Below, piece by piece: positions 4,638 to 62,141 of a stretch of 64,000 nucleotides of DNA (position 1 is its first letter; each line of letters begins with the position of its first letter). This DNA is from Olsenella sp. GTDB lineage: Bacteria > Actinomycetota > Coriobacteriia > Coriobacteriales > Atopobiaceae. The stretch spans positions 62,001-126,000 of the forward strand of contig JALCMG010000006.1 of assembly GCA_022648325.1 (NCBI GenBank), read 5' to 3'. Position numbers and translations under genes: made by a program. A model generated the notes under the pieces. The model was given only the letters and a program-made list of their open reading frames with translations, did no database searches and had not been told where the DNA came from.

Positions 4638-6308
4638 ATGATTGCGTCAGTCATCCGCGCGTGCTTCCCCGTGGCGGCGAACGTCGTTGCCGAGAGGGCA
4701 GAGGAGATCAACAAGCTCAACGTCTTCCCCGTCCCCGACGGTGACACCGGCACCAACATGTCGCTCACGCTCGGGACGGTTGTCAAGGAGGTTGAGGCGC
4801 TCCCGCAGGACGCCACCATCGAGGATATCGCCAAGGCGATTACCCACGGCTCGCTCATGGGTGCCCGTGGAAACTCGGGTGTCATTACCTCCCAGATCCT
4901 TCGCGGCCTTGCTGAGGGCCTCTGCGATGCGAAGGATCAGGACAACCCCACGGCCGCAGACATCGCGCATGCCTTCCGCCGTTCGGTGAAGGTGGCCTTC
5001 AAGGCAGTCCGTAAGCCGGTCGAGGGCACCATCCTCACGGTCCTGCGCGACATGTCCACCCGCGCCGACCAGCTCGAGAAGACACGCATTTCGGCCACCG
5101 AGATGCTCGACGCGCTGGTCATCGAGGCCTACGAGTCTGTCGCTCGCACGCCTGAGCTGCTCCCCGTCCTCAAGGAGAACGGTGTGGTCGACTCCGGTGC
5201 CTTTGGATTTGCCACCTTCTTCGAGGCATTTGTGAACTCCGTCGAGGGTAAGGCCGGTGAGGTCTCCGACTTCAAGACCACGGTCGACTCCTCAGACGCC
5301 AAGGCGGCCGTCTCCTCGAAGGTTGCCATCGAGCTCAACGACGACTGGGAGGGCTCCCAGTACCGCTACTGCAACGAGTTCCTCTTCCACGCCAACAACG
5401 AGTCCTTCGACCGCGACGCTGCGCTCGCCTTCCTCGCCACCATGGGCGACTGCGAGCTCCTCGTGGGCGAGTATCCCGACTTCAAGGTCCACGTCCACTC
5501 CAACACTCCTGACAAGGTCCTCGCCTACATGCTCGAGCGCGGCCAGATTTTCGAGGTCTTCATCCACAACATGGATCTCGAGGCCCACGAGCGCACGGCG
5601 AAGATCGCCGCCGACAAGGCTGCTGAGGAGAAGGCCCCCAAGAAGCCCCTCGGGTTTGTCGCCGTGGCTGCGGGCTCGGGCGAGGCATCCATCCTCACCT
5701 CGCTCGGTGTCGATGTGATTGTCTCCGGCGGCCAGACCATGAACCCCTCCACCGCCGATATCCTTGCCGCCGTCGAGAAGGCAAACGCTGAGAACGTGAT
5801 CGTGCTCCCCGATAACGGCAACATCCGCATGGCAGCCGAGGCGGCCGCCTCGGCCTGCGAGGACGTCCACGTTGCCGTGGTTCCCACCAAGACGGTTCCC
5901 CAGGCCTTCTCGGCGATGTTCGTGGCCGACCCCGGAGGGACGCTCGAGGACAACGTCGAGGCCATGACCGATGCCGTCTCCGAGGTGCGCGACGGCGAGG
6001 TCACCCGTGCCGTGCGTGACTCCCAGGCAGCAGACGGCTCGCCCATCCACTCCGGTGACGTCATGGGCATCGAGGGCGGGGACATCACCGTCGTTGGCTC
6101 GTCCATCAAGGATGTGACCGTCCAGCTCGTTCGCCGCATGCAGGAGGCCGAGGAGGGCGACACCCTCACCATCCTGGCCGGCTCCGACCTCGATGACGCC
6201 TCCTTCCAGGACATCATCGCAGCCATCTCCGAGGCCGAGCCGTCGCTCGAGATCGACTCCCACCGCGGCGAGCAGCCCCTCTATCCCATCGTCTTCTCCA
6301 TCGAGTAG
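4638..6308 (+). CDS. fakA: Fatty acid kinase catalytic subunit FakA (DAK2 / YloV family)
   Basis: ATP-dependent kinase that phosphorylates fatty acids held by a FakB (DegV-fold) partner, feeding exogenous fatty acids into phospholipid synthesis. It has 556 residues. The N-terminal DhaL-like domain shows VFPVPDGDTGTNM with D34 and D36 as the metal-binding aspartates. A middle domain and a C-terminal domain (roughly 330-556) match the YloV layout. It starts 31 bp after the Asp23 gene and ends 6 bp before recG. No fakB is in this window. PlsX downstream in the same run shares the acyl-phosphate intermediate, so the two fit functionally. Confidence 0.88.
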   Translation: MIASVIRACFPVAANVVAERAEEINKLNVFPVPDGDTGTNMSLTLGTVVKEVEALPQDATIEDIAKAITHGSLMGARGNSGVITSQILRGLAEGLCDAKDQDNPTAADIAHAFRRSVKVAFKAVRKPVEGTILTVLRDMSTRADQLEKTRISATEMLDALVIEAYESVARTPELLPVLKENGVVDSGAFGFATFFEAFVNSVEGKAGEVSDFKTTVDSSDAKAAVSSKVAIELNDDWEGSQYRYCNEFLFHANNESFDRDAALAFLATMGDCELLVGEYPDFKVHVHSNTPDKVLAYMLERGQIFEVFIHNMDLEAHERTAKIAADKAAEEKAPKKPLGFVAVAAGSGEASILTSLGVDVIVSGGQTMNPSTADILAAVEKANAENVIVLPDNGNIRMAAEAAASACEDVHVAVVPTKTVPQAFSAMFVADPGGTLEDNVEAMTDAVSEVRDGEVTRAVRDSQAADGSPIHSGDVMGIEGGDITVVGSSIKDVTVQLVRRMQEAEEGDTLTILAGSDLDDASFQDIIAAISEAEPSLEIDSHRGEQPLYPIVFSIE

Positions 6309-47268: not shown

Positions 47269-47955
47269 TTATGACGCCACTGCGGCGATGGCCCATGCGG
47301 CAAGGGCGAGCAAGGCCACTTCACCTGCAATTTTGAGAGCGGACAGAGCCCTTGCGGGAACGGGGGTCGCGTCATGCTCGGAAACAAAGTTATCTGCGAT
47401 GAACGCCGCTTGGGCGATAACGCCCCAGCCAAACAGCACGGGGACGTCCATCAGGCGCGCTGCCGCGTTGGCGGCAACCTTGCCCTGCGCGCCTGCCTCC
47501 ATCTCGGCTGCCCCCCTTACCTCGAAGCCGCAGACGAGGGCCTTTGCCTCAAACAGCTTGAACAGAACGGAGCCGACAGTGCCGCTGATGGCGAGCACGG
47601 CCAGAAATGCAACGGAGATGTCGACAAAAATCAATTTGTGCCCCGCCCAAAACGACCTGGGTGCAAGGTTGGCTGAATACTGGTCGAGAGCAAAGGCTGT
47701 CACGATGAGCAGAACCAGGCTCATTGTTAGCCAGACGGCTGCGGCATCGCGTATGCGAAGCATCACCGAGGAGACCTTTGCCCGTCGGACGGCAACTCTC
47801 AACCCCCGTTGCCGCTCGTCGGACGAGAGGCCCTTGTCCTCGTCAAAGAGAACGTCGTTCCATCCCTTGCCCCTCTTTCTCATGTAGAGCCACGCAAGAA
47901 GGACCGGTAGGCCGATGACGGCTGCCAGGACGGCAACGACGATAACGGTATCCAA
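47269..47955 (-). CDS. Multi-pass membrane protein of unknown function
   Basis: I do not recognise the family. A TTG start at 47955 is preferred because GGGGGGG lies 7 bp upstream; the frame is open to 48033. From that start the protein has 228 residues with about four to five membrane segments (about 3-22, 72-94, 112-138, 170-190 and 205-225). A hydrophilic basic loop follows the first segment (RKRGKGWNDVLFDEDKG). Segment two begins after a positively charged RRAKVSS region. It is divergent from the LuxR-PASTA gene, and a TATACT-like -10 lies on the minus strand at 48002-48007. A shared role with that regulator is possible but unproven. Confidence 0.6.
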   Translation of the reverse strand: MDTVIVVAVLAAVIGLPVLLAWLYMRKRGKGWNDVLFDEDKGLSSDERQRGLRVAVRRAKVSSVMLRIRDAAAVWLTMSLVLLIVTAFALDQYSANLAPRSFWAGHKLIFVDISVAFLAVLAISGTVGSVLFKLFEAKALVCGFEVRGAAEMEAGAQGKVAANAAARLMDVPVLFGWGVIAQAAFIADNFVSEHDATPVPARALSALKIAGEVALLALAAWAIAAVAS

Positions 47956-48138
47956 TGAATCCCCCCCAACAATGCAGGAGATATGCTGGGATGTCCTCTC
48001 GAGTATAGAATGGAGGGCGTCGTCAGACTGCACGCGTGTTGTGGCCAGCGCATTGAATGCCTATGAGAGAAGGTTACGAAAGGCTCTTGATTGTTTAAGA
48101 GAAAGCGATGTTCTTAGAGAAGAGCGGGAGATCAAGCC

Positions 48139-48861
48139 GTGGCAGGTCATCCTTCCATACACCGAGGTCCCTCTTCGTTTGAGGACGTGCTCCATGGTGC
48201 TGGGCTCTCCGAGCGTGAAGCGGACTCGGTTCGGACGGTTGTGATGGGCCTCACTGCTGCCGAGGCCGCTCCGATGATGGGGGTTAGCGCGTCGACCGTT
48301 GGCAGCTATCGGCAGCGGGCCTACCAGAAGCTTGGCGTTGGCACGAAGGCGGAGTTCCTGAGAATGCCCTCGTGTGTCCAGTGGCAAGATGCCTTGGCCC
48401 GGGAGGATGCTTTTGGCAAAGTCGCACCCAAAGCGGTGCCTGAACTTGATGCCCCTAGGAAGGCGCAAACGTTCTACCTGCGCCTCTTCCTCAAGTGCCT
48501 TCTCGCCAGCGTCATCATTGTCTCTGCCGTCGTGTTGCTTTCTGTTGTTCTCAGGCCACGGCCCAGCTATGTCGACTCACCAAACGGCTTTATCTCGTCC
48601 GATTACGGTGACGTGCCAGATGTGACGGGCATGCGCGCGGATGCGGCCGCCTCCGCGCTGGCGTCGGCAGGATACTACCCGGAGTTTCAACCCTGCACTT
48701 CTTCGGAGGAGCCCGGAACAGCTCTTCGCGTAAGCGAAATCGGGGACATGAAGGGCGCTGAAGAGAACCGATCCGTCATAGCGTGGGATGGTGGCGGCGC
48801 CTCTGGCTATAACTTGCATGGCAATTGGAAGGCTTATGCCCTGATTGACGTTGCCGTCTGA
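48139..48861 (+). CDS. LuxR-type HTH, transmembrane, PASTA-domain protein
   Basis: 240-residue protein with three readable parts. Residues 20-76 are a LuxR/GerE helix-turn-helix (LSEREADSVRTVVMGLTAAE, then MGVSASTVGSYRQRAYQKLG). Residues about 112-138 form one membrane segment (LFLKCLLASVIIVSAVVLLS). Residues 157-220 resemble a PASTA domain (DVPDVTGMRADAAASALASA, then PGTALRVSEIGDMKG). The GTG start at 48139 follows GCGGGAG, and a stop four codons before the preceding TAG-bounded frame limits other choices. The topology implies a cytoplasmic DNA-binding head and an outside domain that could sense cell-wall muropeptides. That function is inference. Confidence 0.75.
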   Translation: MAGHPSIHRGPSSFEDVLHGAGLSEREADSVRTVVMGLTAAEAAPMMGVSASTVGSYRQRAYQKLGVGTKAEFLRMPSCVQWQDALAREDAFGKVAPKAVPELDAPRKAQTFYLRLFLKCLLASVIIVSAVVLLSVVLRPRPSYVDSPNGFISSDYGDVPDVTGMRADAAASALASAGYYPEFQPCTSSEEPGTALRVSEIGDMKGAEENRSVIAWDGGGASGYNLHGNWKAYALIDVAV

Positions 48862-49008
48862 GTGCGCGTTTATGGGCTGCGCCGTGCCGTCGACAGGTGG
48901 CAAATGTGGCAATTGGCCGCGTACCGCATACACGCTTTCCTCGTAGCGGTACCGTTGCGGCAAGCCAGGCATCTGCTGGAGGTTTCGTTTGGGGCGGGGG
49001 TAACCGCG

Positions 49009-49131
49009 ATGATTTACGGATTGAGTGCCTGGGATATTATCGGCGTGTTCCTCCTTGCGATTCTCGTTGTCGCGCTGATCATCTTTGGCCTCGTGCTTCT
49101 TGTCAGGAAGGCCTGGGGCAAGCGCGACTAG
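49009..49131 (+). CDS. Small single-span membrane protein
   Basis: A 40-residue hydrophobic peptide starting MIYGLSAWDIIGVFLLAILV, with one membrane segment (about 7-31) and a basic end RKAWGKRD. ATG 49009 lies 8 bp after GGGGCGGGGG. The frame is open back to GTG 48862, immediately after the LuxR-PASTA stop, which would give 89 residues with an unconvincing extra N-terminus. It lies on the same strand as the regulator and may share its transcript. Function unknown. Confidence 0.5.
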   Translation: MIYGLSAWDIIGVFLLAILVVALIIFGLVLLVRKAWGKRD

Positions 49132-49149
49132 CCATCCTCCGGTCCCCGT

Positions 49150-49212
49150 TACACATTCGACGCTCGATTGTGTAGCGACCTGCACGGGTCACACATTCGG
49201 GTGCGAATGTGT
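49150..49212. repeat. Two related palindromes with ACACATTCG arms
   Basis: TACACATTCGA (49150-49160) faces TCGATTGTGTA (49164-49174) with one mismatch, and ACACATTCG (49191-49199) faces CGAATGTGT (49204-49212) perfectly. They follow the small membrane gene within a 478-bp gap without genes. Confidence 0.6.
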
Positions 49213-49285
49213 ATCGGAATAGACTTCACCCAGGGGAATTGCTCCCGGATTCCGGGTTTACTGGCAGGACCCCGTACCCAAAATT

Positions 49286-49415: not shown

Positions 49416-49609
49416 ATTATTGGGCAGAGCATGCCGCCAAGGGGACCCTAAACGCTTGGCTTTGCGCTAAACCACGCTCATCGCGAGCGTCGGCCCCCAA
49501 ATGCTAACAGTCGCGCGCCGCCATGTTTCAGGCGTGCGAAACCCCCGTTACCATGCTCGTTTGGTTCCGATTCTTACAAGACCCAGCGAATCGCCCCACG
49601 TAAAACGGC

Positions 49610-50347
49610 ATGATGATCAGCCTTGCGCTCATCTGCCTCATGGACACCCTCGTGGTTCTCGGCTTCTGGCACTACGTGCCTTGGGGGGAGCTCGCCGAGT
49701 CCGCCTCGCCTCACCTGCTCTACGGCGAGAATCTCCTTGGCGACTTTGGCAAGGTGTGGATGAGCGTGGTGTCTGCACCGGCCTTCATCGGCGCGCAGAA
49801 CTCCACGGTGAACGGCCTCTCCCAGGTCTGCGACGGCATGACCAAGGTGAACATGATGCCGAGGTTCTTCTCGCGAAAGAACCGCTTTGGCGCGTCGGCG
49901 GTGGCCGTCCTCTTTGTCACCATCTCGATCTGCCTCATTGCGTACTTCAGCGGCGGCTCCTCGGACTCCATCTCGTTCCTGATCCTTGTGGTGACGGTGC
50001 TTTGGCTCGTCTCGTGCATCTTTGCCGACATCGACGTGCTGGTGCTTCGCCGTCGCTTCCCCAAGGCGCCGCGCGCGTTCAAGGTGCCCGGCGGTTCCGT
50101 GATCCCCGTCATTGGCATTGCCGGCACGGTGTTCATGATTGTCAACATCTCGAGCGACCCCGCGGAGGCGGTGGCGATTTGGATTCTCGCTGGCGTGACC
50201 TTCCTGGTCCTGGGCGTCTATTCGTTCTTCTGGATCAAGTACAAGATGAGGATGCCGGTCTTCGAGCCGGTGCCGATTCCCGAGGTCCTTGCCATGGAGA
50301 ACGACCTCTACTACGAGATCCGCCACCGTCGCGGAATCTGGCGCTAG
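49610..50347 (+). pseudogene. Amino-acid permease (APC family), 5' truncated
   Basis: 245 residues that correspond only to the C-terminal half of a 12-span amino-acid or glutamate:GABA-type antiporter. Visible blocks are FIGAQNSTVNGLSQVCDGM, ADIDVLVLRRRFPKAPRAFKVPGG and GVYSFFWIKYKMRMPVF, with about six membrane segments. The frame is closed by a TAA five codons before ATG 49610, and no typical N-terminal helices are encoded upstream. I consider it a decayed remnant. Repeats lie on both sides (49286-49415 and 50397-50505). Confidence 0.75.
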
Positions 50348-50396
50348 GGGAGTGCGGCGCGCTGTGGCGCAGCGGGGACGACTGCGAAGGCGCGTG

Positions 50397-50505
50397 CTGC
50401 AGATTCCGATCGTTTAGGGAGCCCTAACCGATCGGGGAATGCAGCCAAGCGCCAATGGTGAGAATTCCGATCGTTTAGGGAGCCCTAACTGATCGAAACT
50501 TGCAG
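50397..50505. repeat. Pair of 48-bp palindromic repeats (copies D1 and D2)
   Basis: D1 spans 50397-50444 and D2 50458-50505, sharing the 22-bp block that begins ATTCCGATCGTTTAGGGAGC and continues into CCTAAC. D1 keeps both TGCAG ends, D2 only the right one. The start-to-start distance is 61 bp, with a 13-bp spacer, as in pair C. Together with the rimP promoter and leader hairpin they fill the 381-bp gap before rimP. Confidence 0.88.
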
Positions 50506-60752: not shown

Positions 60753-62141
60753 TTGGCTGCTGCAAAGAAGACGAAGGACGACATCAAGCTCTCCGACGAG
60801 CTGGGACGCGTGGTCGATGAGCTGGTGAGCTCTTCTGCCAAGTCCGGCGGGAGCGTGTCCGAGGATGACATCCAGGTTGCCATCCGCGACGTCGATGTGG
60901 ATGGGGACGAGCTCTCCGACCTCTATGACGCACTGCGTGCCAAGGGGGTCGAGATTACCACGTCCGGCGAGGTGGCCAACCCTGCCTATGGGATTGGCTC
61001 CATGGACGCCGGCGACGACGATGACGACTTTGGCGCAGACAACGACTTCTCCAATGACGATGACGCCCTCGACGGCGAGGACGACGAGGAGTCCGAGGCT
61101 GCCAGCGAGGCCAAGGAGATCAAGGAGGCCCTGCGCTCGGTCCCCAAGGCCAAGGTCTCCAAGCCAAAGCGCTCGAGCCGTGCGCGAGCACGCCGCCAGG
61201 ACACCTCCACCGTCATGCTCACTGGCGACCCCGTGCGCATGTACCTCAAGGAGATCGGCAAGGTAGACCTGCTCACCGCCGACGAGGAGGTTCACCTGGC
61301 CATGAAGATCGAGGCCGGCACCGAGGCCTCCGAGAAGCTCGAGGCTGCCGAGAACGGCGAGATCGAGCTCACGCGCGCCGAGCAGCGTCGCCTCATGCGC
61401 ATCGAGCAGGTGGGCCTCGATGCCAAGCAGCAGCTCATCTCCGCCAACCTGCGCCTGGTTGTCTCCATCGCCAAGCGCTACGTTGGTCGCGGCATGCTCT
61501 TCCTCGACCTCATCCAGGAGGGCAACCTCGGCCTTATCCGCGCGGTCGAGAAGTTCGACTACACCAAGGGCTTCAAGTTCTCCACCTACGCCACGTGGTG
61601 GATCCGCCAGGCCATCACGCGCGCCATCGCCGATCAGGCCCGCACCATCCGCATCCCCGTGCACATGGTCGAGACCATCAACAAGCTCATCCGCGTGCAG
61701 CGCCAGCTTCTGCAGGACCTTGGCCGCGACCCCACGCCGGAGGAGATCGGTGCCGAGATTGGCATGTCGCCCGACCGCGTGCGCGAGATTCAGAAGATTA
61801 GCCAGGAGCCCGTCTCGCTGGAGACGCCTATCGGCGAGGAGGAGGACTCCCAGCTGGGCGACTTCATCGAGGACTCCACCGCTGTCGCGCCGCCCGAGGC
61901 AGCGAGCGACTCCATGCTCCGCGAGCAGCTTGACCAGGTGTTGGACGGCCTTGCCGACCGCGAGCGCAAGGTCATCAAGTTCCGCTTTGGCCTTGAGGAC
62001 GGGCATCCCCGCACGCTCGAGGAGGTTGGCCGCGAGTTTGGCGTGACGCGCGAGCGCATCCGCCAGATTGAGAGCAAGACGCTGGCGAAGCTGCGCCACC
62101 CCAGCCGCTCCGGTAGGCTCAAGGACTACATGGAGGAGTAG
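60753..62141 (+). CDS. rpoD: Primary RNA polymerase sigma factor RpoD (SigA)
   Basis: 462-residue housekeeping sigma-70 factor. TTG 60753 with GAAGGG about 7 bp upstream is the only good start. The first 150 residues hold region 1.1 and an acidic linker ([16 protein letters not shown]). Region 2 has [40 protein letters not shown] and [13 protein letters not shown], and region 4 the -35-binding HTH ([20 protein letters not shown]). The order dnaG-rpoD resembles many Gram-positives. It would recognise the TTGACN/TATAAT and extended -10 promoters seen here. Confidence 0.96.

Follow-up and report, generated by a model that had tools for sequence, protein, structure and literature searches.

A candidate single-pass LuxR/GerE-type regulator with a predicted extracytoplasmic PASTA domain in Olsenella sp. 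and related Atopobiaceae

The Regulator Gene and Its Domains

The window examined here, the whole 64,000-nucleotide stretch of Olsenella sp. contig JALCMG010000006.1 from position 62,001 to 126,000, carries at 48139..48861 on the plus strand a gene for a protein of 240 amino acids with a GTG start. Three parts can be distinguished in the product: a GerE/LuxR-type helix-turn-helix (HTH) at residues 23-76 (48205..48366, plus strand), a single transmembrane (TM) helix at residues 107-138 (48457..48552, plus strand), and a predicted extracytoplasmic PASTA domain with an inserted hairpin at residues 156-240 (48604..48858, plus strand). PASTA domains are known chiefly from kinases and penicillin-binding proteins, in which they form the outer portion. 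An earlier reading of the DNA alone (the original prediction) had proposed that a DNA-binding head, a span and an outside PASTA domain are joined here without a kinase, an arrangement that the sequence, its homologs, and a structure model all support.

The HTH, originally placed at residues 20-76, matches Pfam GerE (PF00196) with an E-value of 6.4e-8 and 32.5 bits against a cut-off of 23.5, and residues 11-84 of the model resemble the DNA-binding domains of RcsB, NarL, and DosR at a Z-score of about 8. Sigma-70 region 4 was considered as an alternative identity for this HTH and rejected, its Pfam score falling under the cut-off. No Pkinase domain was matched by Pfam in the 240 residues; the kinase of this genome, a conventional protein with four PASTA domains, is encoded by a separate gene.

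The span, expected at about residues 112-138, corresponds to the one strong hydrophobic segment of the protein (best 19-residue stretch 120-138, with values above 1.6 across 110-143) and to a helix at 107-138 in the AlphaFold model. Lysine and arginine outnumber acidic residues by four to two before the span, while two basic residues face three acidic ones after it, and most relatives repeat this pattern, with most of the positive charge next to the HTH. Because these flank charges are so widely kept, the positive-inside rule of membrane topology predicts a cytoplasmic HTH and a PASTA end, including the C-terminus, that lies outside. The defining features of a transmembrane transcription regulator (TTR), a DNA-binding domain and at least one span on one chain, are thus both present. 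The protein has one span and an N-terminal HTH, and so does not belong with the LuxR proteins of 10-12 TM segments, which are defined by an N-terminal TM block and a C-terminal HTH.

Assignment of the Outside Domain to PASTA

In the protein read from its GTG start, PASTA (PF03793) is matched at residues 159-198 with 21.0 bits and an E-value of 3.4e-4, slightly short of the 23.2-bit cut-off; the same stretch exceeds the cut-off once the entire open frame is scored, and an ortholog scores 23.5 bits, above it. More distant relatives, from a different genus of this family, have two GerE domains, one span, and three PASTA domains (2GerE-3PASTA), the latter matched with E-values of about 1e-19 to 7e-23 (70-81 bits). 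Their first PASTA domain aligns to the single one in the window and has the same enlarged second half. Profile-profile comparison with PASTA domains from the window's genome gave 92% probability over 43 columns.

The AlphaFold model (mean predicted local distance difference test score, pLDDT, 79.7; ectodomain blocks 82-92) places strands at 157-160, 179-186, 194-202, and 232-239 and a helix at 167-176, which is the PASTA fold of strand, helix, and three strands, with the inserted hairpin in the second half of the outside domain. The best match of model residues 156-240 was a PASTA structure of Mycobacterium tuberculosis PknB (5e10; Z 7.3, root-mean-square deviation 2.1, 58 residues aligned), followed by a second from the same kinase (2kui; Z 6.8); both fall below the Z of 8 that the tool takes as clear. 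They came from this second comparison, a Foldseek search with the full model having returned only HTH-type matches at the top. Since these middling values combine with the sequence evidence, assignment of the ectodomain to PASTA, as a divergent single copy, is regarded as secure, sequence homology carrying the claim. The domain, first drawn at residues 157-220, should be extended to about 156-240, reaching the C-terminus. The original prediction had itself named a non-PASTA fold or an inside C-terminus as contrary outcomes, and neither emerged from the PASTA-matching model or the predicted topology.

Conservation and Family Relationships

The window's genome (G000 in our survey of 140 Atopobiaceae genomes, where G numbers denote genomes and L numbers loci) is close to Olsenella sp. 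kh2p3 and Tractidigestivibacter montrealensis. Full-length relatives of the regulator were found in seven of the eight genomes of the genus and in G023 and G119, and relatives at 72-37% identity retain all three parts; a second copy, 44% identical, is present in the window's own genome. Two paralog groups can be recognized by position. Group A regulators are located after a gene that we take to be leuS (the window, L032, L033, and L103), and group B regulators adjoin what is presumably lepA, both names being our reading of the neighboring protein sequences. The original prediction also raised the question of shared domain order and neighbors: the order is conserved in Atopobiaceae relatives, whereas the divergently transcribed neighbor is not found beside orthologs.

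When the window gene was compared with its closest ortholog, Nei-Gojobori counts gave nonsynonymous (dN) and synonymous (dS) values of 0.10 and 0.60 for the HTH and 0.10 and 0.84 for the ectodomain, while the linker and span vary freely. Both domains are under purifying selection, and a GMRADxAA motif is invariant in the ectodomain. The retention of all three parts among relatives, together with a dN well under dS, shows that the architecture is not a product of chance.

In other members, GerE heads and span are kept with a different ectodomain in L041, L107, L108, and L110, and with only the third PASTA domain in L136 and L142. The three-PASTA cassette of the 2GerE-TM-3PASTA regulators also occurs without an HTH in L133 (a 316-amino-acid frame, G135) and L144 (322 amino acids, G140), where a twin-arginine/lipoprotein-like signal points to an exported or lipoprotein form of the sensor module. 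From these ectodomain swaps, third-PASTA-only members, and free three-PASTA proteins, PASTA is seen to behave as an exchangeable sensor module. A second membrane PASTA protein without a kinase is encoded in the window's own genome (L114, contig C7, about 62.8-64.6 kb), in which an acidic segment on the cytoplasmic side is followed by one span, three PASTA domains, and an unknown C-terminal domain. When the 2GerE-3PASTA profile was run against 398 genomes of Coriobacteriia and 396 of the phylum, the four candidates scored per genome included no PASTA-bearing relative outside Atopobiaceae, a depth that leaves room for rarer or independent fusions beyond the family.

A Candidate Operator Beside the Regulator

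The original prediction had pointed to the divergent gap at 47956-48138 as a place for HTH binding, but no half-site is present there within one mismatch; the conserved site lies on the other side of the gene. The element YGTRGCAAA-N15/16-TTTGCYACR is found 32-52 nt downstream of these regulators and, in distant relatives, 80-92 nt upstream of the regulator gene. In group A it takes the form of a tandem GTRGCAANT repeat that occurs once per genome in the window's genome, G002, G003, and G005, each time immediately beyond the regulator gene, with one single-mismatch match elsewhere (in G001). The group B form, TGTRGCA-N20-TGCYACA, has one match without mismatch each in G000, G002, G006, and G007, and only downstream of the regulator. 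The two forms reduce jointly to the element given above.

Held-out loci have the element as well, with downstream sites in G023 (exact) and G119 (two mismatches) and sites 80-89 nt upstream of regulators in G116, a 2GerE-3PASTA genome (exact), and in G145, G010, and G140 (one to two mismatches). By locus, sites with at most two mismatches lie downstream (+32 to +52) at L031, L039, L103, L034, and L036 and upstream (-80 to -89) at L104, L108, L136, and L142, a level of match seen in 0.6% of random 200-nt pieces. The scan of the 140 genomes gave at least two exact N15 matches, and among the matches listed both are at GerE-TM-PASTA genes.

In the window, the candidate operator consists of the tandem half-sites GGTGGCAAA TGTGGCAAT at 48896..48913 (plus strand), 35 nt past the stop codon, followed at 48920..48928 (plus strand) by a degenerate sequence, CGTACCGCA, in the position of the right inverted half-site (TTTGCYACR in orthologs). 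The whole site has five mismatches, against zero to three in orthologs; its left and middle half-sites are kept and its right arm has decayed. We infer that the YGTRGCAAA element is a candidate operator for the GerE domain.

Neighboring Genes

Directly downstream of the regulator at L032 and L033 (group A) and at L034, L035, L037, and L038 (group B) lies a gene for an exported protein with a signal sequence, an invariant twin-arginine motif, and the ending TYVGDFYxExYxxFTGxF. Profile searching found this family in five of the 140 genomes as six copies, all six directly downstream of a regulator; the five genomes are all of the window's genus, and the window's own genome is not among them. The exported protein matched no Pfam, NCBIfam, or PHROGs family at a meaningful E-value and no solved relative, and its model is poor (pLDDT 35.5). 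Identity as a class IId bacteriocin was rejected, the match having a non-significant E-value of 0.1. The gene is absent from the window, L031, L039, and the paralog locus of the window's own genome, all of which keep a peptide of about 40 amino acids with one span. Its occurrence in both groups suggests that it is ancestral, with several later losses.

The peptide gene of the window (49009..49131, plus strand) is the likely downstream target there. Its product, a single-span membrane peptide conserved in relatives, is 65-75% identical to the peptides downstream in L031, L032, L033, and L039 and begins M-x-[YQ]-G-L; an analogous peptide is found at paralog loci, including that of the window's own genome.

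As a possible functional partner, the membrane gene on the far side of the divergent gap (47269-47955, minus strand) was considered and set aside, as it does not stand beside orthologs. It belongs to an interval between leuS and rimP (in the window, 47269-47955 on the minus strand and 49501-50427; also L032 and L033) that varies by strain in the manner of an insertion hotspot, containing the unknown membrane gene, a truncated permease-like open reading frame (ORF), and, in L033, a transposase-like ORF. At 49146-49217 of the window a repeat-like element built on CACATTCG...CGAATGTG resembles a dispersed palindromic repeat, and a similar one lies upstream of the L032 and L033 regulators. At L112 (4008-4937, minus strand), the truncated regulator of G093 is accompanied by different cargo in the same place: a small membrane protein together with an exported protein that is low in GC and comes from a different family.

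Proposed Mechanism and Alternatives

The observed domains, fold, conservation, gene association, and DNA element with its fixed position are best accommodated by a one-component regulator of the transmembrane type, which would sense the envelope with no kinase involved and govern the adjacent gene, a reading to which we assign a probability of roughly 60%. The cytoplasmic N-terminal GerE domain would bind YGTRGCAAA half-sites, one helix would cross the membrane, and the outside C-terminal PASTA domain would read the state of the envelope, the likely ligand being, by analogy with the PASTA kinases, a peptidoglycan fragment or precursor. Ligand binding or changed PASTA clustering may then alter dimerization of the tethered GerE heads on the inverted-repeat operator and so switch whatever gene or genes follow. 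These would be the genes for an exported protein with a twin-arginine translocation (Tat) signal and for the membrane peptide in relatives, but only the peptide gene in the window. Activation rather than repression is the presumed direction of regulation.

A peptidoglycan-type ligand is given somewhat below even odds. Kinase PASTA domains bind muropeptides in vitro, but the in vivo effect through PrkC depends on growth phase and other roles for PASTA domains have been proposed (PMC5786024), which is why the odds are set no higher. The more specific proposal, that GerE-TM-PASTA proteins of Atopobiaceae as a family are kinase-free wall sensors in which binding of peptidoglycan fragments or lipid II switches an adjacent exported protein and peptide through the YGTRGCAAA operator, is a tentative one, which we hold a little more likely to be wrong than right.

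Several observations weigh against envelope sensing by this regulator. The kinase activity of PrkC does not respond to peptidoglycan fragments in growing cells, and PASTA domains may serve purposes besides ligand binding (PMC5786024). The window has one divergent PASTA domain, whose second half lies outside the Pfam model match, and its locus lacks both the exported target and an intact right operator arm. The operator was derived from the same loci that it is used to explain, so that the held-out genomes G119, G116, G145, G010, and G140 alone are independent, and the 2GerE-3PASTA loci L105, L106, L109, and L130 have no good site (four to seven mismatches). Frameshifts near the last PASTA strand affect the C-termini at L038 (6306-7028, minus strand) and L039 (about 5481-6271, plus strand), and the G093 copy (L112) has an intact HTH without a TM frame or PASTA. 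The sensor end at these three loci may be subject to decay or switching.

Such losses would be expected if a soluble-type LuxR gene had fused by chance to an extracellular piece and the product were a decaying, non-functional gene. This is extremely improbable, given the intact frame in the window and most relatives, a dN far below dS, the maintenance of two paralog groups, and an order of parts shared across several genera. It is unlikely, though less so, that PASTA serves to localize or dimerize the protein at sites of wall synthesis and that the signal comes from elsewhere, such as the state of the membrane, a proteolytic event, or the short membrane peptide, which is indeed retained even after loss of the exported protein; an ectodomain conserved like the HTH (dN 0.10 in both), with its invariant GMRADxAA, suggests instead a specific interaction surface.

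The exported gene itself, directly downstream in six of six cases and present in both paralog groups, would fit an autoregulatory secretion cassette with no wall sensor, in which the ectodomain would respond to the exported partner or to some other ligand, peptide or protein. We consider this quite unlikely, as the window, L031, L036, L039, and L103 have kept regulator and operator but lack the exported gene. It is very unlikely, finally, that the inverted repeat beyond the gene functions in RNA, as a hairpin or terminator, with the regulator acting elsewhere: the repeat does directly follow the stop codon of the regulator in the genus, and its arms can pair in L039, but no T-run terminator was found at the repeat, an A opposite C (TGTAGCA/TGCCACA) in L034, L035, L036, and L038 breaks pairing while keeping the R/Y half-site, and the same element stands upstream, not downstream, of the genes of distant relatives. 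Envelope reading by a tethered regulator, as set out above, can be put to direct test through the candidate operator and the adjacent target.

Comparison with Known Systems

VraR and LiaR, LuxR/NarL-type response regulators of cell-wall stress, have receiver domains and depend on a histidine kinase that is a protein of its own. They share the HTH fold (7ve5 and 5hev were among the model matches) and a comparable task, that of carrying envelope stress to transcription, whereas the window regulator would carry the sensor on its own chain. Regulators of the ToxR/CadC type, which are TTRs, likewise place a DNA-binding domain, a single span, and a sensor on one chain; their head is of the winged-helix (OmpR) type, in contrast to the GerE head and PASTA ectodomain described here. 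TTRs are reported to be enriched in Coriobacteriia, single-pass proteins being the commonest form (PMC10269533, 2023), and neither "PASTA" nor "LuxR" occurs in the main-text portion of that survey. The original prediction held the architecture to be undescribed, which stands for the LuxR/GerE-PASTA pair, in that the literature searched for LuxR and PASTA together yielded no description of an HTH-span-outside PASTA protein, its operator, or an exported partner, but not for the class of transmembrane one-component regulators, which is well known.

Within Coriobacteriia, DadR, CadR, and HcdR of Eggerthella lenta are LuxR-type activators proven by deletion and complementation (PMC9734109, 2022), and, as is proposed for the window regulator, they are membrane-borne LuxR/GerE proteins acting on a neighboring gene. 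They differ in having 10-12 N-terminal TM segments, a C-terminal HTH, and small-molecule substrates as signals (PMC9734109), where in the protein described here the HTH comes first, a single span follows, and the predicted outside domain forms the C-terminus.

A parallel on the sensory side lies with the PASTA Ser/Thr kinases PrkC, PknB, and StkP, in which an inside effector, one span, and outside PASTA domains follow in the same manner and whose PknB ectodomain the model resembles (5e10, 2kui); in the window the effector is a DNA-binding domain and PASTA is a single divergent copy, with three in distant relatives. If the proposed reading is correct, PASTA ectodomains would be exchangeable sensor modules, also found here as free lipoproteins, and PASTA wired straight to DNA would link the cell wall to a gene through a single protein. 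The regulator would then be the transcription-factor counterpart of the PASTA kinases and a possible reporter for wall state.
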